64,000 nucleotides of DNA from the NCBI RefSeq assembly GCF_020991375.1, contig NZ_JAJLQZ010000001.1, forward strand, positions 310,001-374,000, written 5' to 3'. Made by a program: the position numbers and the translations under genes. Positions 1 to 15,264 of this stretch are shown here, piece by piece (the first letter of the stretch is position 1; every line of letters begins with the position of its first letter). The notes beneath the pieces were generated by a model. The model saw only the letters and a program-made list of their open reading frames with translations. It made no database searches and had not been told where the DNA came from. The stretch comes from Glycomyces amatae. GTDB taxonomy: Bacteria > Actinomycetota > Actinomycetes > Mycobacteriales > Micromonosporaceae.

Positions 1-605
1 AAGATCTGGCTGTAGAGCACCTCGGTGCCCTGCTCCATGAAGCGGTTCGACCAGCCCCACATGTTGTCCGGCTCCCACGCGGCCTGGCGCATCGAGTTCG
101 CCGCACCCACAGTGGCCACGGACAGGTTGAACTCCATGTTGGCCAGGGCGTTCGCGGTATCGGCGCCGTTCGGGATCGAGACGGAGTCGACGCATTGGCC
201 GCCGATGCTCATCTGCTGCGAGCCGTACATCGGCAGTTGGTAACCGGCGTAGCCGTAGGCGCTGTAGGTGCCGATGCCCTCGCTCTTGTCGAGTCGGCTC
301 GGCTCGGCGAACCAGCCGGCCATGCCCGAGTCCGGTGAGGCCGGTTGGGGTGCGGCCTCGCACGGGAGCTCTTGACCTGTGGGCAGTTCGTCGAGGCAGC
401 CCGACCACTCGGTGTGCCACTCGTAGTCGCTGCACCCCTCGTCGCCCTGCGCCCCGGCCGTACCGGGCGTGAACGCCAGGGCCCCGGCCGCTGTGGCCAG
501 GACGAGGACCATGCGCGCCAGCCGTCCGGCCGCGCGCTTCGCGAAGCCGGGGGATCGCTGTCCGGTCGGGGGAGGGGCGAGGTCGTGCGCGGAGGGGTCG
601 GTCAC
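1..605 (-). CDS. VirB6/TrbL-like conjugation membrane protein, 5' part only
   Basis: Reading on the minus strand from a GTG at 605, the frame stays open to the window edge, so only the first roughly 200 residues are present. The N-terminus has a basic stretch (FAKRAAGRLARM), a hydrophobic signal-like segment and an AGAQGDEGC junction, so the chain is probably exported or membrane-inserted. The GTG overlaps the TGA of the VirB4-like gene upstream (GTGA), which indicates translational coupling. In actinobacterial PrgI-type conjugation clusters, the gene after the VirB4-like ATPase usually encodes a large polytopic VirB6-like channel protein. The assignment rests mostly on that gene order, because the transmembrane part lies outside the window. 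Confidence 0.6.
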   Translation of the reverse strand, partial: MTDPSAHDLAPPPTGQRSPGFAKRAAGRLARMVLVLATAAGALAFTPGTAGAQGDEGCSDYEWHTEWSGCLDELPTGQELPCEAAPQPASPDSGMAGWFAEPSRLDKSEGIGTYSAYGYAGYQLPMYGSQQMSIGGQCVDSVSIPNGADTANALANMEFNLSVATVGAANSMRQAAWEPDNMWGWSNRFMEQGTEVLYSQI

Positions 606-3600
606 TGCTCCTCCCCAGGGGTGGTGTTGAGGTAGTCGAGCAGGCCGCGGACCCAGCTGAAGTCGGCGCGGATGCGCTGGACGCGGCCGTCCACGTCGCG
701 CATCACGAACTCGCGGTAGGGGAGCTTCCGCGTTTCCGCCGCATCCACTTCGGACAGTGAGGCGAGCACGCTCTCGTAGCCGACGCCCGTGGGCACCCGC
801 AGCAGCTTGAGCGCCTCCTCGGCGACCTCGGCGTCCTCGGCGATGCGGCCGACGAACACCGTGGACACCAGGTTCTGCACGTCGAGCCCGAGGATGTCCT
901 TCGGGTTCTGACTCGCCACCAGCGCCGCCAGGTTCCACTTGCGGGAGTCGCGGGCCAGGCGCACCAGGAACGAGCGGCCGGACTTCCAGCCCTCCATGAA
1001 GTGCGCCTCGTCGAGGCCCACCAGCTTGCGCCGGTGCATGTCGCCGCCGTAGGCGCGGCGCACGGCCAGGCGGTGCGCGGTGTGCAGCATCGGCAGCGCC
1101 AGCGCCTCCTCGGCCGACCAGTACTCGCGCTCGATCCCCAGGTCGGGCAGGCGCAGCCCGGACATGGTGATCACCGTGAGCGCCGTGTCGTCCTCCAGGA
1201 CCCCCTTGTCGGGGTTGCCGAAGAACAGCTTCGCGAGCGGCATCTCGGCGGTGTCGAGCAGGAGCGCGGCGAGCTCGGCGCCATCGCCGGTGATGTGGTC
1301 CTCGGCGTCCTGGAGGGTCTCCACGATGTCCTCGAGCGCGGAGTCCTCCTCGGCCGGGACGTGGCGGGCGGCGTGGCGCAGGAGGCGGGCGGTGCTCGCC
1401 TCGCGCTGGACCTGCGGCGGCAGCAGCATCGCGCAGATGTCCTGCACCAGCATGCGCCGCTCGGAGCGGGCGTTGGAGACGGCGATGTCGTACTCGCGCT
1501 GGCCGTCGGCGCTGTCCTCGTAGTGCTCGCGCCGCGGGGACGGGATGAGCGCGTACGGCGCGAGGGTCCCGTACTCGGAGCCGGTCAGGTTGAGCACGCG
1601 CGAGAACGGCTTGAGCTCGGGCATCTCGCACAGCTTCGCGAGCGGGCCCGACGGGTCGAGGAGGGTCACCTGGACGCCGCGCCTGGCGGCGAGGTACCCG
1701 ATGGCGCCCATGAGGGTCGACTTGCCGCCGCCGGGCTCGGCGACGAAGACGCTCAGGCCCGACTTCTCGCGGACCTCCGTGGCGAAGTGCAGGTCGAGGA
1801 AGACCGGGCGGCGGCAGGTGCCCGCGGTGCGGCCGATGAGGTCGCCGCGCTGGTCGCCCACAGTGGACGCCGCCTGGGGCAGGGCCGCGGCGAAGAGCTT
1901 GACGGGCATGCGCCGCACGTACCCGGTCTGCGCGACCGGCTCGCCCGGGATGAACTCGCGGGCCAGCCAGTCCTGGTTCTTCGGGTGCTGGAGGCTGATG
2001 CGCATGTCCCGCTGGTACATCTGCATCAGCGTGCGGGCGCGCTCCAGGCACTCCTCCTTGGTGTCGGCGGTGACGGCGAGGCGGTGCCAGCCGTGGGCGC
2101 GCGCGGCGTCGATGGGCAGGCCGGTGGTCATCTCGTCGCCGACGCCCAGGGCGCGCTCGGCGAGGCGCTGGAGCTCGGGCGGGGCGTCCATCGCGTGCTC
2201 GTCGTAGTCGCGCTGCTGGCTGCGGATGAGCCGCAGGCGGTGGTCGAGGTCGCGGAAGGCCTCGCCGGGGCCGAGGATGTCGATGCGGCTCGACAGCTCG
2301 ACCGGCCACGGGCAGCGCTCGTGGAAGTGCAGCCACGGCTCGTGCCGCTGGGGGATCTCGAGCTCCTCCATGCGCCCGACGGTGAGGACCGCGGTGTGCT
2401 TCTCCTCGCCGGTGAGGCGGTTGACGAGCTTGACGGTGGAGCCGTAGGGGCTGCGGTAGCGCTCGATCGACTCGGTGAGGGCCAGGACGTCCCCGGCCTC
2501 CCAGTCGCTCCCCGAGCCCGAGAGCAGGCGCGGCGGCTCCATGCCGAGGGCGACCGACCGGTAGACGAGCCCTTCGAGCTCGGCGGTGGTCGCGCGGCGC
2601 GCGCGCATCCCGAAGGAGCCGAGGACCTCGTCGAACTGGAGGCTGCGCTTCTCGATCTTCTCGCGCTCGGAGAGCCTGGTGCCGCGGCCGAACATGCGGC
2701 CGACCTTCTCGCCGAGCTGGTCGAACGCGCCGCGCCGCGAGAAGGTGATGCCGAGGTAGGTCTCGCCTTCGGCGTGCGAGAGCTGCTGGAGGTGGCGCTG
2801 GGCGGCGACCAGGTGGTCGGCCCAGCTGGTGCCGCCGGGGACGGTGCGCAGCGGTCGGGCGGTGTAGCGGTCGACGGTGCGGGCCCACTGGTCGGCCGGG
2901 AACGGCCGGGTGGTGCGCCGCAGGTGGACGCGCATCCCGGCGAGGCCGGCGAACTGCTCGGCGATCGCGATGATGAGCGCCTCGCGCTCCAGGTCGGGGC
3001 GGAAGGACCAGCGCACGCCCGGCAGCGCGTACCAGGCGGTGACCGAGGCGGGCGTGAACGTGACGTGCCCGGCGATCTCGGTCAGGCTCAGCTCGCGCAG
3101 CGGCTGGCGCTCCTTGTGGCCGCCGATGGGCTTGACGCGGGTCGGCTTGTCGTCGGCCGTCTCCACATGGACGGCGTCGGTGCGGGTCTTCCTGACCGGG
3201 ACGAGGTCCTGCCCCGGCACCCGCTGACCGGTTTGCGAGGCCGGTTTGCGACCTGTGGAAACACTTCCGCGGCCCTGGTCAACAGCCTGTGGATAACTCG
3301 GGGCCTGCTGTGGATAACTTCCGCTGTTCTGTGGATAACCCTGTGGATTCCCGCTGGTCGGAGCCTGTGGGTAACGCTGTGGATACCCCTGTGGATAACT
3401 CGGCTGATTCTGTGGATAACTCTGGGGATAACCCTGTGGACGAGCGGTGGACGGCGGGGTCGTCGACGCAGGTGGCGTGGCGTGTCGAACGGGATCCGAC
3501 GAGGGGGCGGAGTGGACCGGGGCCGGCGGGGTTGCCGCCCTCGGCGGTGTCGGCGCCTGGGGGGCGGGGGCCGTGTCGGGCCGGCTCTGCCACTGCGCGG

Positions 3601-3796
3601 CCTCGGTCCCGTTCTGCCGCTGCGCGGGCTCCGCCCGGCTCTGCCTCTGTACGGGCTCCGCCCGAAAGACGGCGTCCGCGAGCGCAGTCGCGTCGTCGCC
3701 CAGATCGCCGGCGGACCGCTCCCGGTCCCGCACGGGCGCGGGCGGCCGGGGGGCGGAGAACTTGGCGACGGGCTGTCGGCGATCCTCGCCGCTCAT
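602..3796 (-). CDS. VirB4-like type IV secretion/conjugation ATPase
   Basis: A 1064-residue cytoplasmic ATPase expected to power a type IV secretion-like (conjugation) apparatus. Residues 1-220 are low-complexity Pro/Ala/Gln, including a Y-P-Q repeat near residues 120-170. The body then resembles actinobacterial VirB4/TraC-like proteins. The P-loop is EPGGGKSTL near residue 685, and a Walker B segment (KLVGLDEAHFME) lies near residue 930, followed by a VASQNP sensor-like motif. The ATG overlaps the end of the PrgI-like gene by 4 bp, and its own stop overlaps the next gene, so three genes look translationally coupled. The oddity is the AT-rich codon choice (TAT, CCA) in the Y-P-Q repeat, which creates consensus DnaA boxes in the DNA. 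Confidence 0.85.
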   Translation of the reverse strand: MSGEDRRQPVAKFSAPRPPAPVRDRERSAGDLGDDATALADAVFRAEPVQRQSRAEPAQRQNGTEAAQWQSRPDTAPAPQAPTPPRAATPPAPVHSAPSSDPVRHATPPASTTPPSTARPQGYPQSYPQNQPSYPQGYPQRYPQAPTSGNPQGYPQNSGSYPQQAPSYPQAVDQGRGSVSTGRKPASQTGQRVPGQDLVPVRKTRTDAVHVETADDKPTRVKPIGGHKERQPLRELSLTEIAGHVTFTPASVTAWYALPGVRWSFRPDLEREALIIAIAEQFAGLAGMRVHLRRTTRPFPADQWARTVDRYTARPLRTVPGGTSWADHLVAAQRHLQQLSHAEGETYLGITFSRRGAFDQLGEKVGRMFGRGTRLSEREKIEKRSLQFDEVLGSFGMRARRATTAELEGLVYRSVALGMEPPRLLSGSGSDWEAGDVLALTESIERYRSPYGSTVKLVNRLTGEEKHTAVLTVGRMEELEIPQRHEPWLHFHERCPWPVELSSRIDILGPGEAFRDLDHRLRLIRSQQRDYDEHAMDAPPELQRLAERALGVGDEMTTGLPIDAARAHGWHRLAVTADTKEECLERARTLMQMYQRDMRISLQHPKNQDWLAREFIPGEPVAQTGYVRRMPVKLFAAALPQAASTVGDQRGDLIGRTAGTCRRPVFLDLHFATEVREKSGLSVFVAEPGGGKSTLMGAIGYLAARRGVQVTLLDPSGPLAKLCEMPELKPFSRVLNLTGSEYGTLAPYALIPSPRREHYEDSADGQREYDIAVSNARSERRMLVQDICAMLLPPQVQREASTARLLRHAARHVPAEEDSALEDIVETLQDAEDHITGDGAELAALLLDTAEMPLAKLFFGNPDKGVLEDDTALTVITMSGLRLPDLGIEREYWSAEEALALPMLHTAHRLAVRRAYGGDMHRRKLVGLDEAHFMEGWKSGRSFLVRLARDSRKWNLAALVASQNPKDILGLDVQNLVSTVFVGRIAEDAEVAEEALKLLRVPTGVGYESVLASLSEVDAAETRKLPYREFVMRDVDGRVQRIRADFSWVRGLLDYLNTTPGEEQ
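3288..3431 (-). promoter_or_regulatory. Array of DnaA-box sequences inside the VirB4-like gene
   Basis: Five exact copies of TTATCCACA lie in the same orientation (read on the minus strand) at 3288-3296, 3309-3317, 3330-3338, 3390-3398 and 3411-3419. Three copies with one mismatch lie at 3366-3374, 3378-3386 and 3423-3431. In the reading frame they encode Tyr-Pro-Gln repeats, with seven of eight Tyr codons being TAT in a gene that otherwise uses TAC in the places inspected. DnaA binds this nonamer in most bacteria, so the array could bind or titrate DnaA or act in replication of a mobile element. That function is inference. A simple repeat expansion is the alternative. Confidence 0.6.
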
Positions 3797-4182
3797 AGGC
3801 GCTCCTCAGGTCGGTCGGATTCCACGAGCGCGGGCCGCAGGCGGATCGAACGGGTCGTGAACGTCGGGGTCCGCGTCTCCTGGCCGGCGTCGCGCGTGTG
3901 CTTCCAATCGGTGAGCAGCGTGCGCAGGACCGTGGTCGCGGGGCGGTCGGCGTCGACGTAGCGGAAGATCAGCGAGGTGGCCACGAGGGCGAGGGCGATC
4001 TCGATCGAGGGGAAGAGCTCGACGTCCCCGGTGAAGACCCATCGGAGGAACATGAACAGGGCCAGTATCGCGGCGAAGGCCCCGTACTGCCCGTAAGGGA
4101 GATGGACGGGGAGGGTGTAGCCCGGGGGCCCGAGGTACAGCAGGCGGGCACGGTAGATGTCGTCGTCGGTGCGCAAGCGCAT
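3793..4182 (-). CDS. PrgI-family-like small membrane protein of the secretion cluster
   Basis: A 129-residue protein starting MRLRTDDDIYRARLLYLG, with two adjacent hydrophobic segments at about residues 31-75 (YGAFAAILALFMFLRWVF and IEIALALVATSLIFRYV) and a basic, soluble tail. Size, topology and position directly upstream of the VirB4-like ATPase match the PrgI-type (VirB3-like) inner-membrane component of actinobacterial and Gram-positive conjugation systems. The stop overlaps the start of the ATPase gene. It lies about 45 bp after the pilin-like gene, so all four genes probably share one transcript. Confidence 0.65.
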   Translation of the reverse strand: MRLRTDDDIYRARLLYLGPPGYTLPVHLPYGQYGAFAAILALFMFLRWVFTGDVELFPSIEIALALVATSLIFRYVDADRPATTVLRTLLTDWKHTRDAGQETRTPTFTTRSIRLRPALVESDRPEERL

Positions 4183-4227: not shown

Positions 4228-4506
4228 CTAGTCCTCTTGGCTGAAGAGGACGTCGACCAGTCCGCCGCCGACGGCCACGAGGACCACGGCGCCGGCGATG
4301 AAGGCGATGCCGAGGATCGCGATGGTCGAGGAGGTCAGCACGCGGCTGACCTCGCCCTTGTTGGCCCGGGCGATGAAGATGAGGCCGAGGATCGCCAGGA
4401 GGATCGGGGCGATCCGGGACAGGAAGAATCCGATGATCCCCTGCGTGTTGATCTCGGCGCCGGCCTGGGCGTGCGCGGCCACCGTCCAGAGTGTCTCTCT
4501 CATCAT
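4228..4506 (-). CDS. Small VirB2/pilin-like membrane protein
   Basis: About 92 residues with a short N-terminal region ending in an AHA motif (possible signal peptidase site), then two hydrophobic helices (FFLSRIAPILLAILGLIFIA and STIAILGIAFIAGAVVLVAV) separated by a short basic loop. This is the layout of VirB2/TrbC-like pilins and of the first gene of actinobacterial PrgI/VirB4 clusters. ATG codons at 4518, 4506 and 4503 are possible starts. The 4518 codon abuts its GGAAGG directly with no spacer, so 4506 is preferred. It is the first gene of the minus-strand cluster, and the promoter should lie in the divergent region to its right. Confidence 0.6.
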   Translation of the reverse strand: MMRETLWTVAAHAQAGAEINTQGIIGFFLSRIAPILLAILGLIFIARANKGEVSRVLTSSTIAILGIAFIAGAVVLVAVGGGLVDVLFSQED

Positions 4507-4889
4507 CGTCAGTCCCATCCTTCCGTCACAGGAGTCACTCGAGTCTCACGTAACGCAATTTTCACTCATGATTCTTGTCTCCCAACCCATTGCGGGGTCT
4601 GCCCTCATCATATGCCGGGCCCCTGACGGAACGCACCTTCGTCGGCTCGAAGAGCGACCGTTCGGCCCGCCACGGCACAGTGAAACCGATTGACCGCGGA
4701 AAGACAATCCGGTGGGCGCGATCACTCCGTGTCGGTAATCCGACACTAAACTGGAGAGGCCCGGTGTCCTACGCTCGAAACCGGGCCGGCACCGCACAAT
4801 AGACCCCGACGCGCGGCACCGCCCGGTGCCGCACGCTCATGCCCACACCGCCGGCCACCAGGCCGAGCACCGACCTCGCGGAGACCACC
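4507..4889. other. Divergent intergenic region between the secretion cluster and the substrate locus
   Basis: About 380 bp with no convincing gene. It is clearly less GC-rich than its surroundings near 4540-4620, as expected for promoters driving the minus-strand secretion cluster and the plus-strand locus. An inverted repeat at 4729-4746 is listed separately. Short open frames here lack coding character. Confidence 0.5.
4729..4746. promoter_or_regulatory. Inverted repeat, possible operator
   Basis: GTGTCGG (4729-4735), TAAT, CCGACAC (4740-4746) form an uninterrupted 7-4-7 inverted repeat. A TAAACT sequence that could serve as a -10 element follows at once. It lies about 145 bp upstream of the membrane-protein gene that opens the substrate locus, so a regulator-binding site or promoter is plausible. 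No regulator gene is adjacent. Confidence 0.35.
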
Positions 4890-6530: not shown

Positions 6531-6833
6531 ATGGGACGAGTCTTCGACGCCGCATTCGTCCGACAGGTCGGGGCGAACATCGACGCCAACGTCGTCCCCG
6601 TCCTGGAGAGCACCGACGCGATCCTCCCCGAGCTGAGCGCCGTCGACCGCGGCCTCCACGCCTCCGTGGCGCTGCCGATGGCCGCCTCCTACACGACGGC
6701 CGTCTCGGCCGCGACCGAGTCGATGGCCGCGGCCGCCGAGTCCTTCCGCCGGATGCGCGAGGCCCTCGACGGGTGCGCGCAGGACATGGAAGACGCCGAC
6801 GAGGCCTGCGCGCGCTCGTTCGGCGGCGAATAA
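6531..6833 (+). CDS. Small all-helical ESX/WXG100-like protein
   Basis: 100 residues, Ala-rich and predicted all helical, with no signal peptide. It has the length and two-helix layout of WXG100/ESAT-6-like secreted partners (helix 1 around residues 5-45, helix 2 around 55-95), but no clear W-x-G at the turn. The start is ATG 6531, preceded by AAGGCAGGG. It sits between a YbaB-like gene and a larger WXG protein with short spacing, so it may be the small partner of the product of 6844-7731. The call is by size, composition and context. Confidence 0.55.
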   Translation: MGRVFDAAFVRQVGANIDANVVPVLESTDAILPELSAVDRGLHASVALPMAASYTTAVSAATESMAAAAESFRRMREALDGCAQDMEDADEACARSFGGE

Positions 6834-6843
6834 GGGGACCGGC

Positions 6844-7731
6844 ATGTCGGCAGGACAGGGCATCTACGACGCGGGCGAGGAGATGGCGCCGTACTACGAC
6901 GGCGTCATCAAGGGCTGCGCGGTCGCCATCGCGCCGCCCGCGGTCGTCTTCGGTCCCGCCGTGCAGTCCCTGGCCGCCGGCGTGTACACGAACCAGTGCA
7001 ACCCCGGCGACGTCATGAAGGCCGGCGGCGCGTGGATCATGCTCGCCGAGAAGAACACCGAGGCCGCCGAAGCCCTCCAGGCCGAGATCGACGCCGTCAC
7101 CCCCGAGCACTGGTCCGGCGACGACGCCGACGCCTTCGCCGAGGCCGCCGGGAACGTCAAGCGCCAGCTCCAGGAGCTCGCCGCCACCGCCCTCCTCATC
7201 GGCGCCCAGCTCGTCGCCTTCGCCGTGACGCTCACCGTCTACTGGCTCTTCCTCACCGCCTGCGCCGCCGCTATGGACGCCCACCTCACCGCCTACCTCG
7301 CCGCCCTCGCCGGAGCCTCCACCGCGTCCGGCGCCCCCGCGATCATGGCCGGCGCCCGGACCGTCGCCGACTCTCTCGCCGCGACCGTGAAGCGCTTCGA
7401 GTCCGCGCTCGCCTCCCTCGCGAGCGACTGCGCCGCCCTCACCGGTGGGTTCACCGCCTTCACGTTCGGATTCCAGAAGGGCGCCGGCGACCCCGTCGAC
7501 ATCGCCGGGGCCGATGTCGCCGACACGCTGGAGGGCTTCGCGGCGTACGGACTCGACGCGCTCATGACGACCTCCGGCGGCCGCCACGCCGCGGTCAGCC
7601 CCGGACTGCACGCCCTCCAGGGCAGCGAACGGGGAAGCGGCTTCGGCGGCCCCGGGCTCGGCGCGGTCGGCGGCCTCCGCGACCTGTGGGAGGGCAACAT
7701 CCCCGATCCCGAAGAGGCGCAAGGGCGGTGA
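6844..7731 (+). CDS. WXG-type helical protein with hydrophobic segment
   Basis: 295 residues, start ATG 6844 after GGGGA. The N-terminal part is helical and has a W-S-G turn in EHWSGDDADAFAEAAG near residue 90, the hallmark of WXG100-type type VII secretion substrates. A hydrophobic stretch (ALLIGAQLVAFAVTLTVYWLF) follows near residue 120, then further amphipathic helices and a flexible C-terminus. Such long WXG proteins may be secreted as heterodimers with a small partner, and the 100-residue gene just upstream is the obvious candidate. The hydrophobic segment could mean membrane insertion after export. Confidence 0.6.
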   Translation: MSAGQGIYDAGEEMAPYYDGVIKGCAVAIAPPAVVFGPAVQSLAAGVYTNQCNPGDVMKAGGAWIMLAEKNTEAAEALQAEIDAVTPEHWSGDDADAFAEAAGNVKRQLQELAATALLIGAQLVAFAVTLTVYWLFLTACAAAMDAHLTAYLAALAGASTASGAPAIMAGARTVADSLAATVKRFESALASLASDCAALTGGFTAFTFGFQKGAGDPVDIAGADVADTLEGFAAYGLDALMTTSGGRHAAVSPGLHALQGSERGSGFGGPGLGAVGGLRDLWEGNIPDPEEAQGR

Positions 7732-7970
7732 GCCCGGGCCCGCGCCGCTCCACGGCCCCGGGCGTGACCGTCGCGCGGTACGCGGAGACCGCGGAGGAGG
7801 GGGGGTACCGGGCCCCGGCGCCGCCGCGGTCGAGGCCGACATCGAAGCCGGCGGACGCCGCACCGAAGGCGAACACGCCCCCGCCGGGCGTTCGAGGGTT
7901 CCGCGCCTGGCGTCCGGTTGCTACCGTGAGGGGCGACACCGACCCCTCTCCCGCCGCGAGGTGCGCACCC

Positions 7971-9524
7971 ATGAGCGACCAACCGCTCGAGTCCTACCAG
8001 GGACTCGACGCCGCCGCCCCGGCCGCCGGGGCCCCCGCGTTCGGAGACGTGCAGCCCGCCCCCGCGACCGCGCAGCCCTCCGCGCCCGGGCCGATCCAGA
8101 CGCTCCCGGACGAGTACGTCCCGCCGCAGCGCCAGGCCTGCTCGAACCCCGGGTGCGCCAACCCCACCGCGCACCCCGCCGAGACCGCCTGGCAGCAGCT
8201 CGTCTCCGCCGTCCCCGTCGAGCGCCAGCTGTACCGGCTGCGCCCCAAGGAAGGCGGGATGGCCTTCCCGACCGAGGCCGACTTCCGGGCCGCCGTCGGC
8301 GCCGTGCGGCCCGAGTACGCCGACGCGCACTCGATCGAGCGCCTGCGCGGCGCCTGGACCGAGGACGTGGCCGGGCGCCTCGCCGACTGGTCGGAGCGGA
8401 TCAGGTCGAACCTCGCCGACCTCGCCGAAGGCTGGTCCGGCACCGACTTCGAGACCTTCGAGGCCGCGTGCGGGAAGACCCGCGAACTGGTCGACGACCT
8501 CATCGACGACATCGACGCCACCGTCGCGGGCCTCCAGTCGACCGAGGAGGCGCTCTACTCCCTCCAGGGCGGCGACTCCGGCGAGATCCCCTACCCCGCA
8601 CCGCAGTTCTGGATCGACGGCGAGTGGCACAGCTGGGTGTCCGTCCACATCAGACCCGCATGGTGGCACGGCGACTGCATCCAGTACACCTGCCGGGACG
8701 CCGAGCACGTGCTCGCCCTCGGCGGCGCCGAACCCGAGCTCGCGACCGAGATCATCGACTACATCGACGAGCGCATCGTGCACTACGTCGACTACTACGC
8801 CAGCCCCGTCAACGTCGAGCGCGAGGGCCTCGACCCCAAGGGCCTCACCGTCGAGGAGGCCAAGGAGCTCGCCGTCGCCGACGCGATGGAGCACTACGGG
8901 ACCCTCGTCGACCAGAGCTGGGGCGCCTACGACGCCCGGCACGGCGAGATCAACGACGACATCGACCAGCGCAGCGCCGACACCGACGGCGAGGAGCGCA
9001 CCGTGCGCACCGTGCGCAGCGACAAGGAGTACCCCGCGGCGGCCGACCCCGCGTACATGGACCTCGAACCCCCGCCGATGGACCAGCCCGCCGGCACCTC
9101 CGCGCCCCTGGCCAGCGAGGACCCGTCCCTGGACCCGCCCTCGGGCGAGGCCCCCGGGAGCGAGGAGCCCCCCGCCGAGGACGACGGCGGCGAGCGGCCC
9201 GGCGGCGGCCTCGCCAGCGGCGATCCCGCCACGGGCGGATCCGGCTACGGCACGGTCGCCGGCCCCGGCGCCGCCGCGGCCGCCCCCGCGGCCACCAGCG
9301 CGACGACGGCCGCCATGGGCCCCGCGACCGCCGGCGCGGCGGCCGCACCCGCGGCCGCCGCCGCGGGCTCCGGCTCCAGGGGCTCGGCCGCGATGATGGG
9401 CGGCGCCGCCGGCGCCGGGGTCGCCAGGCCCGCGGAGGACAAGGAGCGCGAAGCCGACGTCGACCTGGTCGAGAACCAGAACATGTGGGGCTACGTCAAC
9501 GAGGACGACGACCCCTACGCCTAG
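7971..9524 (+). CDS. Large WXG-type protein with Ala-rich linker and D-P-Y-A tail
   Basis: 517 residues from ATG 7971. The longer open frame extending upstream is not coding in character. The N-terminus contains a paired-Cys motif (CSNPGCANP). A helical domain with the W-S-G turn (AEGWSGTDFETFEAACG) lies near residue 155. Further helices follow to about residue 340, then a Pro/Gly/Ala-rich low-complexity linker, and the chain ends with MWGYVNEDDDPYA. The product of 11262-12944 has the same architecture and a related end (VWGIGNEAEDPYA), so the two are paralogues. A role as a type VII secretion substrate is inferred from the WXG domain. The tail may be a secretion or sorting signal. Confidence 0.65.
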   Translation: MSDQPLESYQGLDAAAPAAGAPAFGDVQPAPATAQPSAPGPIQTLPDEYVPPQRQACSNPGCANPTAHPAETAWQQLVSAVPVERQLYRLRPKEGGMAFPTEADFRAAVGAVRPEYADAHSIERLRGAWTEDVAGRLADWSERIRSNLADLAEGWSGTDFETFEAACGKTRELVDDLIDDIDATVAGLQSTEEALYSLQGGDSGEIPYPAPQFWIDGEWHSWVSVHIRPAWWHGDCIQYTCRDAEHVLALGGAEPELATEIIDYIDERIVHYVDYYASPVNVEREGLDPKGLTVEEAKELAVADAMEHYGTLVDQSWGAYDARHGEINDDIDQRSADTDGEERTVRTVRSDKEYPAAADPAYMDLEPPPMDQPAGTSAPLASEDPSLDPPSGEAPGSEEPPAEDDGGERPGGGLASGDPATGGSGYGTVAGPGAAAAAPAATSATTAAMGPATAGAAAAPAAAAAGSGSRGSAAMMGGAAGAGVARPAEDKEREADVDLVENQNMWGYVNEDDDPYA

Positions 9525-9539
9525 AGAAGGAGCCCCCGC

Positions 9540-9878
9540 ATGGACACGCGCGCTTTCGACCCGGCCGCGCTCGAGCGGTACCGCCAGTTCCTCGGCGACC
9601 TGCTCGAGGAGCTGGAGGGCGAGATCATCCCGGTGCTGCGCGACGGCGACCTGCGGAAGGCCCCGGCCTTCGGCACCGCGCCCGGCGCCGCCGAGGTCGC
9701 GGCCGTCGAGTACGCCGACTTCCACGCGACGTCCTGGCGCAACCTCCAGTACCTGCGCGGCACCCTGTACGGCCTGATGGCCGGACTCCAGACCGCGATC
9801 GACAACGGCGGCGTGGTCGACCAGCAGGTCGCCACGGACCTGCTCCGCATGACCGACGGCGACGACCTCTACGCCTGA
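9540..9878 (+). CDS. Small helical partner protein, paralogue A
   Basis: 112 residues, ATG 9540 with a strong GAAGGAG site. It is predicted to be all helical, with a core matching the product of 10148-10471: EIIPVLRDGDLRKAPAFG versus DIIPKLRNGEALGKMPAFG, then FHATSWRNLQYLR versus FHSTTWDNLQALR. Length and topology fit ESAT-6/WXG100-like partners, although the W-x-N-L motif differs from W-x-G. It ends DGDDLYA, resembling the D-P-Y-A ends of the two large WXG proteins. It follows the large WXG gene by 15 bp and is probably its secretion partner. Confidence 0.65.
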   Translation: MDTRAFDPAALERYRQFLGDLLEELEGEIIPVLRDGDLRKAPAFGTAPGAAEVAAVEYADFHATSWRNLQYLRGTLYGLMAGLQTAIDNGGVVDQQVATDLLRMTDGDDLYA

Positions 9879-9994
9879 CCCGTGCCCTCCGGCCGCGACT
9901 GGAGCGCGGACATGTCCGTGAGCTGCGGTCACGCCCCGTATCGGCGCAATCATTCAGGGGGAACACGGTTTGCACACCCCTGCTAACGTGGTCG

Positions 9995-10024
9995 TTGAAC
10001 TTACATCCGAGACCCGCGTAATCC
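9995..10024 (+). promoter_or_regulatory. Possible sigma-70-like promoter
   Basis: TTGAAC (9995-10000) and TAATCC (10019-10024) are separated by 18 bases, within a 269-bp gap ahead of the second substrate operon. The gap has no other gene. The match is modest and unsupported by any other evidence. Confidence 0.25.
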
Positions 10025-10147
10025 CCCCGAGGGCGCAACGCAGCAAGCAGGTTCCGCCCTGAACCGCTCGCGTCCTCGCGCGATGGCGTCGAACCGCACG
10101 TCGGGGGGAACGTACCGCAGGTACTGAACTCACAGACAGGGAACGCG

Positions 10148-10471
10148 ATGGCGACTAGCAAGCAGGTCGATCCCGAAGCGCTGCGTGCCTACCGCACCAA
10201 GGTCCAGGCGCAGCTGGACATCGTCGAGAACGACATCATCCCCAAGCTCCGCAACGGTGAAGCGCTCGGCAAGATGCCCGCGTTCGGCGCCATGGGCGGA
10301 TCGGACGCGGCGCGGGGGACGTACGAGACCTTCCACTCCACGACCTGGGACAACCTCCAGGCACTGCGCGAATCCCTGCACGGCATCATCGACACCCTCG
10401 AAGAGTCCGGCAACCTGCACGAGGAGACCGACGCGCAGAGCGCGGCCGACTTCGACGGCGAATTGTCATAG
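10148..10471 (+). CDS. Small helical partner protein, paralogue B
   Basis: 107 residues, ATG 10148 preceded by CAGGGAACG. It is a clear paralogue of the product of 9540-9878, sharing the I-I-P-x-L-R, P-A-F-G, F-H-x-T-x-W-x-N-L-Q and L-R motifs in the same order. It is all helical with no signal peptide, as in secreted WXG100-like partners. It starts an apparent operon with the lipoprotein at 10516 and the large WXG protein at 11262, whereas paralogue A follows its large partner. The pair duplication was therefore accompanied by rearrangement. Confidence 0.65.
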   Translation: MATSKQVDPEALRAYRTKVQAQLDIVENDIIPKLRNGEALGKMPAFGAMGGSDAARGTYETFHSTTWDNLQALRESLHGIIDTLEESGNLHEETDAQSAADFDGELS

Positions 10472-10515
10472 TGGTCAGCCGGCAACCGGGCGACCGACAG
10501 AGAGGACTTACGGAC

Positions 10516-11259
10516 GTGACCCGAAACCTGACCCTGATCAAGGGCTTCGCCGCACTCGGCGCCGCCGGTCTGCTCCTGGCCGGCTGCGGCGGCAACGAGC
10601 TGCCCGCCCCTGGAGACGGGGACGACAACGGAGGCTCCAGCGAAGGCGGCAGCTCCGAGGTCGGCTCGTACAGCGTGATGATCGACTGGGATGGCTGTGA
10701 GGCCTTCGACGACATCCAGACCCTTCAGGACTTCATGGGCGTCACGGATCTGGGCGGCAGCGGTCTCGTGAGCAGTGCGACCGGCGGTGGTCTCGACGGC
10801 GAGGCGTTCACCTGCGGTGCCTCCGCGACGCTTCCCTCGTACAACCTCAACGGCAAGGACATTCCCGGGGACGCGAGCATCGACGTCGGCGGGGTGCCGT
10901 GGGATTCACCTGAAGAGGCGGCCGAGAACTTCGAGGGCCGCGTCGAGCAGCTCAAAGAGGCCATCGAGATCGACGGCGTCGAAATGTTGAGCCCGCAGGA
11001 GGGTGAGATCGAAGGCGACTGGGATGCGAGCCATTACTTCGCGTCCACCACGTCTACGGGGCATCAACTCAACGCCATCGGTCTCAAGGGCGACCTGATC
11101 GTCTACGTGTTCATCACGCACTTCAACGACCCCGGTGTTTTCAACGATGACGAACCGGTATACCCGTTCACCGATGAGGAACTGGTCGACTGGGTGCTGA
11201 ACGAATACATGCCGCAGACGCATGCCGACCTCCTCGCCAAGAAAGAGAGTGGGCTCTAG
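10516..11259 (+). CDS. Secretion-locus lipoprotein (DUF3558-like pattern)
   Basis: 247 residues from GTG 10516 (AGAGAGGA about 10 bases upstream). The in-frame GTG at 10471 would put a long tail before the signal peptide. The signal sequence ends in lipobox LLAGC, so the chain is a membrane-anchored lipoprotein. A D-x-C-x-x-F motif is followed by LQDFMGV, then an IDVGG strand and the C-terminal motif LVDWVLNEYMPQTHADLLA. This arrangement recalls actinobacterial DUF3558-type lipoproteins and recurs in the two anchored proteins at 61.6-63.3 kb. It lies between a small helical protein and its large WXG partner, so it may chaperone or receive the secreted complex outside the membrane. Confidence 0.75.
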   Translation: MTRNLTLIKGFAALGAAGLLLAGCGGNELPAPGDGDDNGGSSEGGSSEVGSYSVMIDWDGCEAFDDIQTLQDFMGVTDLGGSGLVSSATGGGLDGEAFTCGASATLPSYNLNGKDIPGDASIDVGGVPWDSPEEAAENFEGRVEQLKEAIEIDGVEMLSPQEGEIEGDWDASHYFASTTSTGHQLNAIGLKGDLIVYVFITHFNDPGVFNDDEPVYPFTDEELVDWVLNEYMPQTHADLLAKKESGL

Positions 11260-11261
11260 AC

Positions 11262-12944
11262 ATGGCAGAAGAAGATTTCGAGAAGGAAGACTACGGTGAC
11301 GCCGAGGTCGGGATGGAGAAGTCCGCGATCGAGGCCCGCATCAACGAGTTGCTGAAGACGCCGACTTGCGATCTCGGCGAGGAATGCACCGCCAAGGTCG
11401 TCGAACCCGCCGAGGAGGCCTGGCTCCGGCTCATGTCGGCCGTCCCCAAGAACGGTCAGACCGCCACTGTCTCTCCTGCGCGAGACATCCAGACCTACGC
11501 ACTGCCGGACGGCCAGTCGGTCAACTCGCTTGTCAGGTCCCTTCGTCCAGAACCTGCCGACGATTATTCGATGGAGCAGATCAGTTCTGAGTGGAAGAAC
11601 ATCTACCAGACGCTCAGCGATGTGCCCGAGAACCTCAAGACCGGCCTCTCCACCCTCTCCGAGGATTGGAAGGGCGACGACTACGACGCCTTCGAAGAGC
11701 AGGTCGAGAAGGTCATCAAGAACGCCCGGACCGTCCTCGCCGATATCTGGGGTGAAGAGGGCACTGTCGGCGGCGCCGTCAAGATCCTCGATGAGAAGTC
11801 CGACAGCATCTATGAGCAGCAGGGCCGCGACGAGTGCGTCTACCCCTCGCCGAAGTTCCACCTCGAGGACGCTGCCGCCTGCTCGCACAAGATCCACATC
11901 CGGCCGCCGTACTTCGCGGCCTGCGAAGTCTTCCCGGACGACGAGACCAAGGTCGCGATGGAGTGGGCCGGCTTCGAGCCCACCATCATCGACGAGGTCC
12001 AGGAAGAGCGAGAGCGCATCTATGACATGTACATAGAGCACACGAACCAGTACCCGGACTACGAAGAGGACGGGATGAAGGGCGAGGAACTCGCCCGCAC
12101 CCGTGCGGACGAGTACGCCAAGCGCGAGACCGACAGCCTCGGCACCGACGGCCAGGAGCAGCTGCAAGCGCAGGCCACCCAGGTCAACGAGGACATCACC
12201 GACCGCCACGAGAACACCGATCTGGCGGTCTCGGAGATCAACACCGAGGCCAAGACCTCCGAGCCGACCGCCTTCAACGAGGGCGGCGACGTCGAGAACC
12301 CCGGCAGCGGCGGCCTCGACGGCGGGTCCCCTCCCGGCGGCGGCGCGCCCCCCGGCCTGGGCGACATGAAACCGCCCGGGTCCCCCAAGGGGCTCACGCC
12401 GACATCCCCGAACCTGCCGGACAGCAACGGTCCCGGGGACATCGGCACGCCGACGTCCCCGACCTTCCCCGACACCGACGGACCGGGGGGCCTGGACGAC
12501 AACACGTGGTCGCCCTCGAGTCCCGATCCTGACGACCTCACCGGTGGCCTGGCCTCCGGCGGCGGGCTCGGCAGCGGTTCCGGCCTCGGCGGCGGCTCCC
12601 TGGGCGGCGGCCCCGGCGGTGGCGGCATGGGCGGCGGTCCCGGTGGCGGCATCGGCGCCGGAGCCGGCGCCGGTGGCGGTATCGGCGGCGGCATGGGCGG
12701 CATGATGGGCGCCGGCGGCGGTGCCCGCGGCATGGGCGCCGGGGCCGGTGGCGGTCGCGGTGCCGGTGGCGGCCGAGGCGCCGGCGGCATGGGCCGCGGC
12801 GGCGCCATGGGCGGCATGATGGGCGGCGCCGGCGGCCGCGGCATGGGCGGCCAAGGCGAGGACGGTCAGGAGACCGGTACCTGGCTCACCGAGGACGACG
12901 ACGTCTGGGGTATCGGGAACGAAGCCGAAGACCCCTACGCGTAG
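11262..12944 (+). CDS. Large WXG-type protein with Gly-rich region and D-P-Y-A tail
   Basis: 560 residues starting 2 bases after the lipoprotein stop. The helical N-terminal domain carries the W-K-G turn (SEDWKGDDYDAFEEQVE) near residue 136. Charged helices follow to about residue 320, then Pro-rich repeats (GPGDIGTPTSP, GPGGLDD), a Gly/Met-rich stretch of about 110 residues, and the end VWGIGNEAEDPYA. It is paralogous to the product of 7971-9524 in order of parts and tail. The base composition of the first 900 bp is lower in GC than in its neighbours. It is likely a type VII-type substrate whose flexible Gly-rich part spans or decorates the envelope. Confidence 0.65.
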   Translation: MAEEDFEKEDYGDAEVGMEKSAIEARINELLKTPTCDLGEECTAKVVEPAEEAWLRLMSAVPKNGQTATVSPARDIQTYALPDGQSVNSLVRSLRPEPADDYSMEQISSEWKNIYQTLSDVPENLKTGLSTLSEDWKGDDYDAFEEQVEKVIKNARTVLADIWGEEGTVGGAVKILDEKSDSIYEQQGRDECVYPSPKFHLEDAAACSHKIHIRPPYFAACEVFPDDETKVAMEWAGFEPTIIDEVQEERERIYDMYIEHTNQYPDYEEDGMKGEELARTRADEYAKRETDSLGTDGQEQLQAQATQVNEDITDRHENTDLAVSEINTEAKTSEPTAFNEGGDVENPGSGGLDGGSPPGGGAPPGLGDMKPPGSPKGLTPTSPNLPDSNGPGDIGTPTSPTFPDTDGPGGLDDNTWSPSSPDPDDLTGGLASGGGLGSGSGLGGGSLGGGPGGGGMGGGPGGGIGAGAGAGGGIGGGMGGMMGAGGGARGMGAGAGGGRGAGGGRGAGGMGRGGAMGGMMGGAGGRGMGGQGEDGQETGTWLTEDDDVWGIGNEAEDPYA

Positions 12945-12952
12945 CACCTTCG

Positions 12953-12988
12953 CAACGGCCGGGCCCGCGATCGCGGGCCCGGCCGTTG
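12953..12988. terminator. Perfect palindrome, likely terminator
   Basis: CAACGGCCGGGCCCGCGA and its exact complement form a 36-bp uninterrupted palindrome just after the stop of the large WXG gene. It has no U-tract, as is common for terminators in high-GC actinobacteria. Confidence 0.65.
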
Positions 12989-13171
12989 CCGTTCCCGGAC
13001 GGCGGTACGGCCCGGTCACGCCTCCGGCCGGGCGCGGCGCGGCGCGGTCGCGTTCCCGTTCGCGACGGGGGCGTCGCCCATCGGTCACCCGCCGTCACCG
13101 GCGGCGAGCACCGCCCCATTAGCATCGGGAGTGACCGCGGCCTCCTGCCGCGGCCTGATGAAGGGAGGGCC

Positions 13172-13510
13172 ATGACCGACGATCCGACCGCCGACATGCG
13201 GCAGCGGGCCGCTGAGATCCAGCGCCTCGCCGTCGAGGCAGAGGGCGAGGCGGTGAGCGAGGACGGCGCGGTCAGGGTCGTCGCCGGCGCCGCCGGCAAC
13301 CTCAAGGAACTCGACCTGCGGCTGAACGCGTTCGAGCTGAGCGGCTACGAGCTCGGCGAGCTCATCGTGGAGACCATCCGGGCCGCCGACCGCAAGGTCG
13401 CCGCAGAACTGTCCGCGGCCATGGCCGGCATCATGGGCGCTCCGGCGCCCGCCGACCTCTTCGGCGGGGGCGTCCGCCCCGTCGACCCCGACACGGAGGA
13501 GCAGCCGTGA
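13172..13510 (+). CDS. YbaB/EbfC-family protein
   Basis: 112 residues from ATG 13172 with GGGAGGG upstream. An N-terminal helix is followed by the strand set EAVSEDGAVRVVAGAAGNL and a long C-terminal helix, the YbaB/EbfC fold, whose members are DNA-binding nucleoid-associated dimers. Its GTGA overlap with the next YbaB-like gene indicates coupling, so the two may form a heterodimer. It opens a new operon after the palindromic terminator. Confidence 0.75.
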   Translation: MTDDPTADMRQRAAEIQRLAVEAEGEAVSEDGAVRVVAGAAGNLKELDLRLNAFELSGYELGELIVETIRAADRKVAAELSAAMAGIMGAPAPADLFGGGVRPVDPDTEEQP

Positions 13511-13908
13511 CCGACCGCAGCGAGCGGCCCAGCCCGCAGGAGATGCTCGCCCGCCTCGAGCGGATGCAGGCCGAGGCCGAGGCCACCCTCGAGAAGTACA
13601 ACCGGCTGGCCGAGGAGATGGGCACGACGGAGGTCGAGGCGTTCTCCGAGGACGGCCGCATCCGCGTCAAGCTCGACGCGGACGGCAAGGTCGCCGAGAT
13701 CGGCATCGACGAGTCCGCGATGCGCTTTCGCCAGACCCTCGGCCCGGCGGTCATGGCCGTCATCGAGGAGGCCAAGGCCGCCTACGGCGTCAAGATGACC
13801 GAGATGGCGCAGGCCCTCGTGGGGGACCGGATCGACGTCATGGGCATCGTCCGCCAGAGCCTGCCCGAGCACATGCGCGGCCGCTTCGACCAGGGCACCG
13901 ACCGCTGA
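13507..13908 (+). CDS. YbaB/EbfC-family protein, second copy
   Basis: 133 residues from GTG 13507, overlapping the previous stop by 4 bp. A coiled N-terminal helix (residues 8-40) precedes TTEVEAFSEDGRIRVKLD and a C-terminal helix beginning TLGPAVMAVIEEAKAAYG, a classic YbaB pattern with a longer tail. Adjacent coupled YbaB paralogues before a WXG-type gene are a recurrent arrangement in actinobacterial secretion loci. The role there is not established. Confidence 0.75.
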   Translation: MTDRSERPSPQEMLARLERMQAEAEATLEKYNRLAEEMGTTEVEAFSEDGRIRVKLDADGKVAEIGIDESAMRFRQTLGPAVMAVIEEAKAAYGVKMTEMAQALVGDRIDVMGIVRQSLPEHMRGRFDQGTDR

Positions 13909-14034
13909 CCTCTGGCCCGCAGGAGGCGGCGGCGCGCCCGCCGGCAGTACAATCACGTGAGCGGCGCCACTGACGCATCACTGACGCGCCGCTTCGCCGC
14001 CGCCCGCGGCGCCGCCCTCGATCGGAGCCCGCCC

Positions 14035-15264
14035 ATGGTCGACATCACCAGCGTCACCCTCGCCGAACTGAGCGCCGCCGAAGGCGCGCTGCGCCAGGTC
14101 CAGCCCGACGCCGCCGCCCTGAGCGCCGAGGTCGACAAGGACGGCATGGACCTCATGGGGTGGGGCCTGTGCGGCGCGGCGACCTTCGCCACCGGCTACT
14201 TCTCGATGATCGGCGAGCTGCGCTCGCTGTTCCAGATGATGGCCGACGGCATCGAGGGCCACGCCGGGCGGCTCGAGGCCTGCCGCACCGACTGGGCCAA
14301 CGCCGACGACGAGATGGCGCAGGCCTTCGCCGAGCTCGCCCCCGAAGGCCTCGGCGAGTCCTTCAACGTCGCGGGGAGCACCTTCAACTACTCCGGCGCC
14401 GGGGACGCGATCCGCACCGACTCGTGGAAGAGCGTCACCGGCCCGTCCTTCTACAACAACACCGTGAACGGCGTCGACGCCGTCAAGGAGGTCGTCCGCG
14501 CGCAGGACGGCGTCTCCAGCGTCATGGGCGGCCTCGGCGACCTGACCAACTCGGTGTTCCAGATCGGCGGCGACATCGGGACGTTCTTCGAGAACCCCCT
14601 GAGCCTCCTGCTCCAGAACGGCATGGAGTTCCTGATCAAGCTCATCAAACCGGTCGACGACCTCATCGGCATGGTCACCGGCAACCCCTCCCGCATGGGC
14701 GACGAGATCAAGCGCTGGCAGGAGATCCGCGAGAAGATGCACCCCATCGGCGAGGGCATCGCCGCGATCCCCGAAGGCGCCCTCAAGCAGTGGCACGGCC
14801 AGGACGGCGACGCCGCCCGCGAGAAGATCGGCGAGTTCGCCGAGGGCGTCTTCGAGCTCGCCGACCGCACGATCATCCTGGAGAGCCTGCTGCGGCTGTG
14901 CGAGGCCCTGGCCACGGCCATCCAGAAGTGGCTCATCAGCCTCGTCTCCGACTGGTGCGTCGACGAGATCATGGCCTGGCTCGTCGCGCTCGCCTCCTCG
15001 GTGGTGACCTTCGGGGCCTCGGCCGCCTCGGCGATGATGCGCTCGGTCGTCAACGCCGTGATCACGATCGGCAAGGCCCTCAAGAAGGTCTACGAGGTCA
15101 TGCAGACCTTCGCGACGACCAACAAGATCATGAAGCCGGTCCTGGAGTTCATGGGCAAGGTCTCCGGCCCGTGGGCCGAGGCGGGCGTGAAGACCGTGAG
15201 CACGGTCGGGCGCCTCATGGGCACCGGCGGCTCGACCGACATCACCGAAGCGTTCACCCAGTAG
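14035..15264 (+). CDS. Large helical WXG-type protein with hydrophobic C-terminal region
   Basis: 409 residues from ATG 14035 (GGAG 10 bases upstream), preferred over the upstream GTG at 13957. The first 100 residues are a helical domain of ESX type (LSAAEGALRQVQPDAAALS, then an LEACRTDWANADDEMAQ segment). A W-H-G turn (KQWHGQDGDAAREKIGEF) lies near residue 250, followed by a hydrophobic stretch (IMAWLVALASSVVTFGASAA) and more helices. The arrangement resembles long WXG/LXG-like actinobacterial proteins whose toxin or membrane-active part follows the secretion domain, but no toxin fold was recognised. It is co-oriented with the membrane protein that follows 4 bp later. Confidence 0.6.
   Translation: MVDITSVTLAELSAAEGALRQVQPDAAALSAEVDKDGMDLMGWGLCGAATFATGYFSMIGELRSLFQMMADGIEGHAGRLEACRTDWANADDEMAQAFAELAPEGLGESFNVAGSTFNYSGAGDAIRTDSWKSVTGPSFYNNTVNGVDAVKEVVRAQDGVSSVMGGLGDLTNSVFQIGGDIGTFFENPLSLLLQNGMEFLIKLIKPVDDLIGMVTGNPSRMGDEIKRWQEIREKMHPIGEGIAAIPEGALKQWHGQDGDAAREKIGEFAEGVFELADRTIILESLLRLCEALATAIQKWLISLVSDWCVDEIMAWLVALASSVVTFGASAASAMMRSVVNAVITIGKALKKVYEVMQTFATTNKIMKPVLEFMGKVSGPWAEAGVKTVSTVGRLMGTGGSTDITEAFTQ

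Follow-up and report, generated by a model that had tools for sequence, protein, structure and literature searches.

The variable N-terminal tail of a VirB4-like protein of Glycomyces is encoded, ahead of its conserved domain, by an array of DnaA boxes that has been preserved at the level of individual codons. Comparison of orthologous sequences supports selection acting on the DNA here, with the Y-P-Q repeat of the protein being largely its by-product. On balance, residues 104-190 probably carry a DnaA-binding control locus of the datA or DnaA-box-cluster type written into the reading frame, to which DnaA is predicted to bind. The boxes of the proposed locus, five of them exact and about six weaker, all point the same way, and most follow one another at a pitch of 12 or 21 bp.

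The window analyzed here is a 64-kb stretch of DNA (G000:C1:310001-374000) from a 6.17-Mb genome. The exact nonamer TTATCCACA is present in the window five times, all on the minus strand and all within the array, where shuffling predicts 0.03 occurrences. Together with three one-mismatch copies, these nonamers lie in a single orientation within 144 bp (positions 3288-3431), in agreement with the count, orientation and span given in the earlier note, and they read in the coding sense of the VirB4-like gene. Additional features are weaker copies of the box, one of them in another reading frame, and a second motif, CGACACGC-N4-CCACCTGCG (Table 1). When two-mismatch copies are counted, box starts follow one another at steps of 12, 21 or 24 bp. 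The GC content of the array, profiled per 100 bp, is 0.56-0.65, and no AT-rich stretch appears in this profile. Across the whole genome, TTATCCACAG was counted 30 times, as against once for the reversed pattern, and 5 of the 30 are in the array; of the four same-strand TTATCCACA pairs in this genome that are separated by 2-32 bp, the array holds three. A chance origin of the array was rejected on the shuffling expectation and on 20,000 synonymous recodings of residues 104-190, drawn from the codon frequencies found elsewhere in the gene, none of which contained TTATCCACA.

Table 1. Features of the VirB4-like locus, in positions of the window.
Feature	Position	Strand	Remark
VirB4-like ATPase, 1064 aa, host gene	602..3796	-	PF12846 at residues 784-1044
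DNA element inside reading frame (box array and upstream motif)	3235..3489	-	31/32 conserved A/T-third columns at residues 104-188
Weak box GTTTCCACA, other frame (V-S-T)	3254..3262	-	GTT TCC ACA kept 17/20
Exact DnaA box TTATCCACA	3288..3296	-	
Exact DnaA box TTATCCACA	3309..3317	-	
Exact DnaA box TTATCCACA	3330..3338	-	
Weak box GAATCCACA	3342..3350	-	AAT codon kept 20/20
One-mismatch box TTACCCACA	3366..3374	-	
One-mismatch box GTATCCACA	3378..3386	-	
Exact DnaA box TTATCCACA	3390..3398	-	
Exact DnaA box TTATCCACA	3411..3419	-	
One-mismatch box TTATCCCCA	3423..3431	-	
Weak box TCGTCCACA	3435..3443	-	two mismatches
Second conserved motif CGACACGC-N4-YCACCTGCG, possible partner-protein site	3467..3487	-	conserved in genus and Stackebrandtia
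Small membrane protein, upstream, same cluster	3793..4182	-	no Pfam match; homologue adjoins VirB4 in G022, G024
Small membrane protein, upstream	4228..4518	-	no Pfam match; homologue in G001

Seven of the eight Tyr codons in the Y-P-Q repeat are TAT, whereas Tyr is TAC at 19/19 positions in the rest of the gene, and CCA for Pro is absent from the gene outside the array. The earlier note had remarked on this TAT bias and had suggested that the repeat may be a by-product of selection on the DNA, an idea that orthologues with TAC-CCG codons and no nonamers would contradict. The orthologues gave the opposite result, in 20/20 cases in the genus and in 5/5 Stackebrandtia genomes, and the idea is supported. 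The genus set comprised 22 genomes, 20 of them with a readable orthologue, and in all 20 the 1064-aa frame is open. One further genome (G017) was left out, as it has only the C-terminal part of the gene followed by a run of N; the other (G012) gave no match for the VirB4-like gene or its VirB6-like neighbor, and its stretch C1:90001-170000 contains a single N and no VirB4 or VirB6 genes, with masking elsewhere being possible.

Exact boxes are present in every readable orthologue (five in 15 genomes, four in 4 and six in 1). At invariant Tyr columns the codon is TAT in 80/80 cases within the array, compared to 2/180 outside it. Pro at the eight box columns is encoded by CCA in 146/148 cases as opposed to 19/1255 elsewhere, and only 5/45 invariant-Pro columns outside the array keep a single codon. 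At 32 of 1016 codon columns, at least 85% of genomes agree in having A, or agree in having T, as the third base, and 31 of these 32 fall at residues 104-188 (hypergeometric p = 5.6e-35, a value that ignores shared ancestry and serves as a yardstick only). Each box begins with a T that is supplied by the last position of the codon before it. The codon preceding TAT-CCA-CAR runs ends in T in 97/107 cases, whether it encodes Ser, Gly, Ala or Arg; elsewhere, codons for these four residues end in T in 1.7-2.4% of cases. The weak box in the other frame is likewise retained in 17 of the 20 orthologues. Averaged over 19 comparisons with the window's genome, identity at fourfold sites over the whole region is about 0.79 inside and 0.73 outside (G011 being lower inside). 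This is only a mild increase, and the constraint is confined to the box positions. Codons between the boxes vary freely while the boxes are held.

The array is also found in all five Stackebrandtia genomes (G041, G042, G046, G047 and G048). In four of them boxes are located 56, 122, 143, 164 and 209 bp from the upstream motif, although the peptide between the boxes differs, and in G046 they are located at 56, 77, 110, 131, 152 and 197 bp; in this last genome the array and the conserved domain are on separate contigs, and their assignment to one gene is based on the shared N-terminal pattern. The Stackebrandtia N-terminal tail is otherwise scrambled, and the conserved columns of the alignment are mainly the boxes and the motif. 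In G048, the boxes at 122 and 164 bp, plus one at 32 bp, read TTCTCCACA and encode Ser-Pro-Gln. The dnaA-dnaN gap of the same genome contains four TTCTCCACA, as compared to 0-2 in the other 12 gaps read, a match between array and gap that is only suggestive because it involves one species. A double box, TTCTCCACA-N3-TTCTCCACA, is also present in G048 within the dnaA frame, in the linker region (L360:591-611).

The second motif, CGACACGC-N4-YCACCTGCG, is present at 18/20 genus loci and differs by one base at the other two. It is spelled with the rare codons CGA, CCA and CCT, whose third bases are kept in 20/20 orthologues. Its distance to the first full box is either 56 bp (five loci) or 68 bp (13 loci, in which a 12-bp module is inserted). 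All five Stackebrandtia genomes have the motif, with one base changed in G042 and in G046. In the window's genome the exact motif occurs once, and the motif search did not find it at the oriC locus; with one mismatch allowed, 10 matches including the exact site were obtained genome-wide versus 9 for a reversed control, and inexact matches are therefore at chance level. Taken over both genera, the aligned loci demonstrate conservation at the DNA level with conserved spacing.

In the outgroup, four orthologues could be read at the N-terminus (G022, G024, G034 and G036). They contain no box there, and their similarity to the VirB4-like protein begins at residues 167-228. G023 was left out as an outgroup, its contig starting inside the gene. 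Distant, weak orthologues (G028, G030, G032, G038 and a second match in G034) showed no exact box in the stretch examined, which covers only some of their N-termini, and they were excluded from the counts. In the array-less outgroups G022 and G024, two TTATCCACA flank an GTTTCCACA about 8-9 kb from dnaA (L314 and L315).

In the window's genome the dnaA-dnaN gap, which is likely to be its oriC, contains eight copies of TTTTCCACA, three of TTGTCCACA and one of TTATCCACA. Many of these boxes follow one another at 11-12 bp, and two further TTATCCACA are found just upstream of the likely dnaA start. Each of the 13 dnaA-dnaN gaps examined across the family has TTNTCCACA boxes, and the array variants TTATCCACA, TTCTCCACA and TCATCCACA were found in such gaps too. 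The array thus places several nonamers of the same class as the likely oriC in a short stretch. The DNA-binding domain of DnaA aligns closely with those of M. tuberculosis (3pvp) and E. coli (1j1v). E. coli DnaA is reported to favor box pairs with 2-3 bp gaps (PMC11317965), and the 12-bp pitch of the array leaves a 3-bp gap between boxes. Steps of 12 and 21 bp may approximate one and two turns of the helix while keeping to the reading frame.

To place the array relative to oriC, we used the seven genomes with array and dnaA on one contig. The distance to dnaA is about 242 kb in G000 (the array being about 243 kb from the dnaA-dnaN gap), 234 kb in G008, 214 kb in G010, 230 kb in G018, 207 kb in G041, 258 kb in G047 and 502 kb in G048, such that six of seven genomes fall at 207-258 kb. 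In G047 and G048 the array is on the opposite side of dnaA from the other five genomes. The array-less gene of outgroups G022 and G024 is 453 and 498 kb from dnaA, and proximity to oriC may therefore be partly a property of the gene itself.

A DnaA-titrating role is plausible from the oriC class of the nonamers and their oriC-proximal location. DnaA bound to the boxes would make the array an oriC-proximal sink that limits the active DnaA reaching oriC after a round of replication. The copy number of the array would double soon after oriC is replicated, a property that a titration site needs. In the manner of datA or DARS, the array may perhaps also help to change the nucleotide state of DnaA, a partner protein possibly taking part, and expression of the operon could modulate the array by opening or closing the site. 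The Y-P-Q peptide would then be the incidental translation of boxes that lie in a tolerant N-terminal region. Several observations count against this explanation: the array is presumably transcribed, its exact boxes share one frame, as an old tandem duplication would also give, its oriC proximity may follow the gene, the gene gave no match in G012, and fourfold-site identity rises only mildly.

Other box clusters were noticed in these genomes. A second cluster in the window's genome is intergenic (L014:7127-7202, G000:C34:22127-22202); its four TTGTCCACA and its two TTATCCACA follow one another mostly at steps of 11-12 bp. A six-box cluster in G010 (L319) resembles it, and its 11-bp TTATCCACA pair recurs in G008, G009, G021 and G042. 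In the genomes that have it on the dnaA contig (G008, G009, G010 and G042), this cluster or pair is about 75-127 kb from dnaA, and in G008 and G010 it is on the opposite side of dnaA from the coding array. Pairs of TTATCCACA spaced at 21 bp occur between high-GC3 open frames in other Glycomyces (L048, L050, L055 and L059).

It is possible, if rather unlikely, that the DnaA-bound array acts locally, regulating or road-blocking transcription of the secretion-type operon and thereby coupling it to the replication cycle, and plays no part in the timing of replication. DnaA acts as a transcription factor elsewhere (PMC4447404), two small same-strand genes precede the first long gene, in which the array begins at 365 bp and ends at 508 bp, and several other 21-bp TTATCCACA pairs in Glycomyces sit in gaps between open frames. 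However, the array exceeds those intergenic pairs in size, a site at the promoter would do this more simply than boxes of conserved spacing inside a gene, and the four outgroup genes manage without an array.

The host gene matches Pfam AAA_10 (PF12846), a VirB4-type domain, with 80 bits against a cut-off of 27.5, and the NCBIfam models score under their cut-offs on it. We take the small membrane protein adjoining it to be PrgI/VirB3-like by position and look, and the next one upstream to be pilin-like by look. The cluster of VirB4-like, VirB6-like, M23 peptidase and small membrane protein genes is recognizable in two complete outgroup genomes, and clpB is about 35 kb away. WXG100/PPE-like genes at positions 6531-15264 of the window diverge from the VirB4-like operon, with the PPE match at 6844-7731 being the only one above cut-off; this run suggests that type VII-like substrates are encoded next to a type IV-like machine.

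This neighborhood bears on an improbable alternative, in which the array is the oriV or oriT of an integrative element and the DnaA boxes are part of that origin. The origin of phage lambda lies inside its gene O. The VirB4-like and M23 peptidase genes of the neighborhood would fit such an element, as would a VirB6-like protein whose mobilome match stays under the cut-off, and among the matches listed from 120 viral contigs, 16 of 137 TTATCCACA pairs are in open frames of at least 150 codons. A gene for a DUF6291 protein in an uncultured Oscillospiraceae also bears a similar Y-P-Q array. Against it stand the presence of a recognizable locus in the two complete outgroups, the variable linkers between boxes, unlike those of plasmid iterons, and a non-systematic look at neighborhood proteins that found no mobility gene, neither relaxase nor integrase, among those scanned. 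The conjugation element envisaged in the earlier note is so far unsupported, given the outgroup loci and the position of clpB. A replication origin, its other suggestion, is unlikely because the array has no AT-rich stretch and because oriC is likely to be located between dnaA and dnaN. Identity of the array with oriC was rejected on its distance from that gap and its GC content, and plasmid iterons were rejected, as only the box is conserved while the linkers vary.

Coding-embedded boxes were also seen in other genes. The Oscillospiraceae array, an unrelated one, is in the C-terminal tail of the DUF6291 protein (L132:2647-3348), with Y-P-Q boxes at 21-24 bp pitch; no DUF6291 homologues of it were found in viral contigs. 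In G047, three TTATCCACA at 18-bp pitch encode Y-P-Q in a 240-codon open frame (L391:9582-9626, G047:C1:2724582-2724626). Two viral contigs contain TTATCCACA pairs in long open frames with antisense V-D-N or V-D-K repeats (L231:6661-6711 and L232:10409-10438), and these frames are possibly replication genes carrying origin sites.

A DNA-binding protein other than DnaA could read the TTATCCACAG repeats, although we regard this as more improbable still. The second motif indicates that something besides DnaA boxes is conserved. In a survey of 84,980 genomes, a triple of TTATCCACA at 21-bp pitch was found in 78 stretches, 17 of which are this VirB4-like gene (16 assigned by similarity and L146 by its N-terminal pattern). 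In 29 of the 78, neither this gene nor a DnaA or DnaN homologue was detected in the examined DNA, which favors another reader and counts against the preferred explanation. However, of the 61 triple stretches outside this gene, 32 do include a homologue of DnaA or DnaN within the examined DNA, and the three array variants recur in dnaA-dnaN gaps. Four stretches of Competibacteraceae type (L091, L098, L099 and L134) have two opposed 21-bp triples within about 122 bp and a DnaA homologue in the same stretch.

Selection on the protein repeat, with codons frozen by recent tandem duplication or chance, is barely credible: every exact box does share one frame and Y-P-Q is conserved as a peptide too, but this rival is already contradicted, and was rejected, on the codon evidence (TAT, CCA, the A/T-third columns and the T before the box), and moreover G048 swaps Tyr for Ser yet retains a box variant, the other-frame box is kept, and box spacing is retained where the peptide is scrambled.

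The DnaA-binding control locus that we favor can be set beside known clusters. In actinobacteria, the Streptomyces clusters H24 and H69 are DnaA-box clusters outside oriC that are said to affect replication. The datA and DARS2 loci of E. coli are described as binding IHF, and DARS2 also Fis, while the array has a conserved second motif as a putative partner site. Like datA, DARS1 and DARS2, which are DnaA-box clusters off oriC at conserved relative distance (PMC5010248), the array is a cluster located off oriC. The cited passages call datA and DARS non-coding (PMC12371093, PMC5010248), whereas the array is inside a 1064-aa frame. In B. subtilis, joint deletion of six oriC-proximal clusters leads to early initiation, and the array is likewise oriC-proximal; the importance of these clusters is disputed (PMC5295017, PMC13220808), and by one account over-initiation was not observed without them (PMC13220808). 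No codon-level embedding is described for them in the cited passages (PMC5295017, PMC13220808), while the array is embedded at codon level. DnaA sites inside B. subtilis genes (rplB, codV and others), bound in vitro, are intragenic as the array is; they have 2-4 boxes where numbers are given, with no codon conservation described in the passages cited (PMC4447404).

Since the site is inside a gene, it would probably be disturbed whenever the secretion-type operon is transcribed. Transcription through datA or DARS harms them (PMC5010248), and it was suggested as a reason that B. subtilis DnaA was not detected in vivo on the intragenic rplB site (PMC4447404). For these reasons, operon activity could switch the array. 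In its most specific form, which we put forward only tentatively, the array would be an actinobacterial functional counterpart of datA/DARS in a coding gene, at which DnaA and a dedicated partner on CGACACGC-N4-YCACCTGCG assemble into a complex that controls the state of DnaA and is itself switched as the surrounding secretion operon is transcribed, the protein tail being a shadow of the DNA site.

Among the titles and abstracts searched, a scope that mostly excludes subscription papers, none concerned a codon-conserved DnaA array. Here a DnaA-box cluster is preserved at codon level in a chromosomal gene, and the protein sequence bends to the DNA. Synonymous changes could remove the boxes without altering the protein, making DnaA titration or switching in actinobacteria directly testable, as well as whether DnaA clusters work in transcribed genes. 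Conserved rare codons that spell DnaA boxes also provide a search rule for similar hidden sites. Compared to datA, DARS and the B. subtilis clusters, what is new in the array is its embedding in a reading frame, its codon-level conservation in two genera and its second motif.
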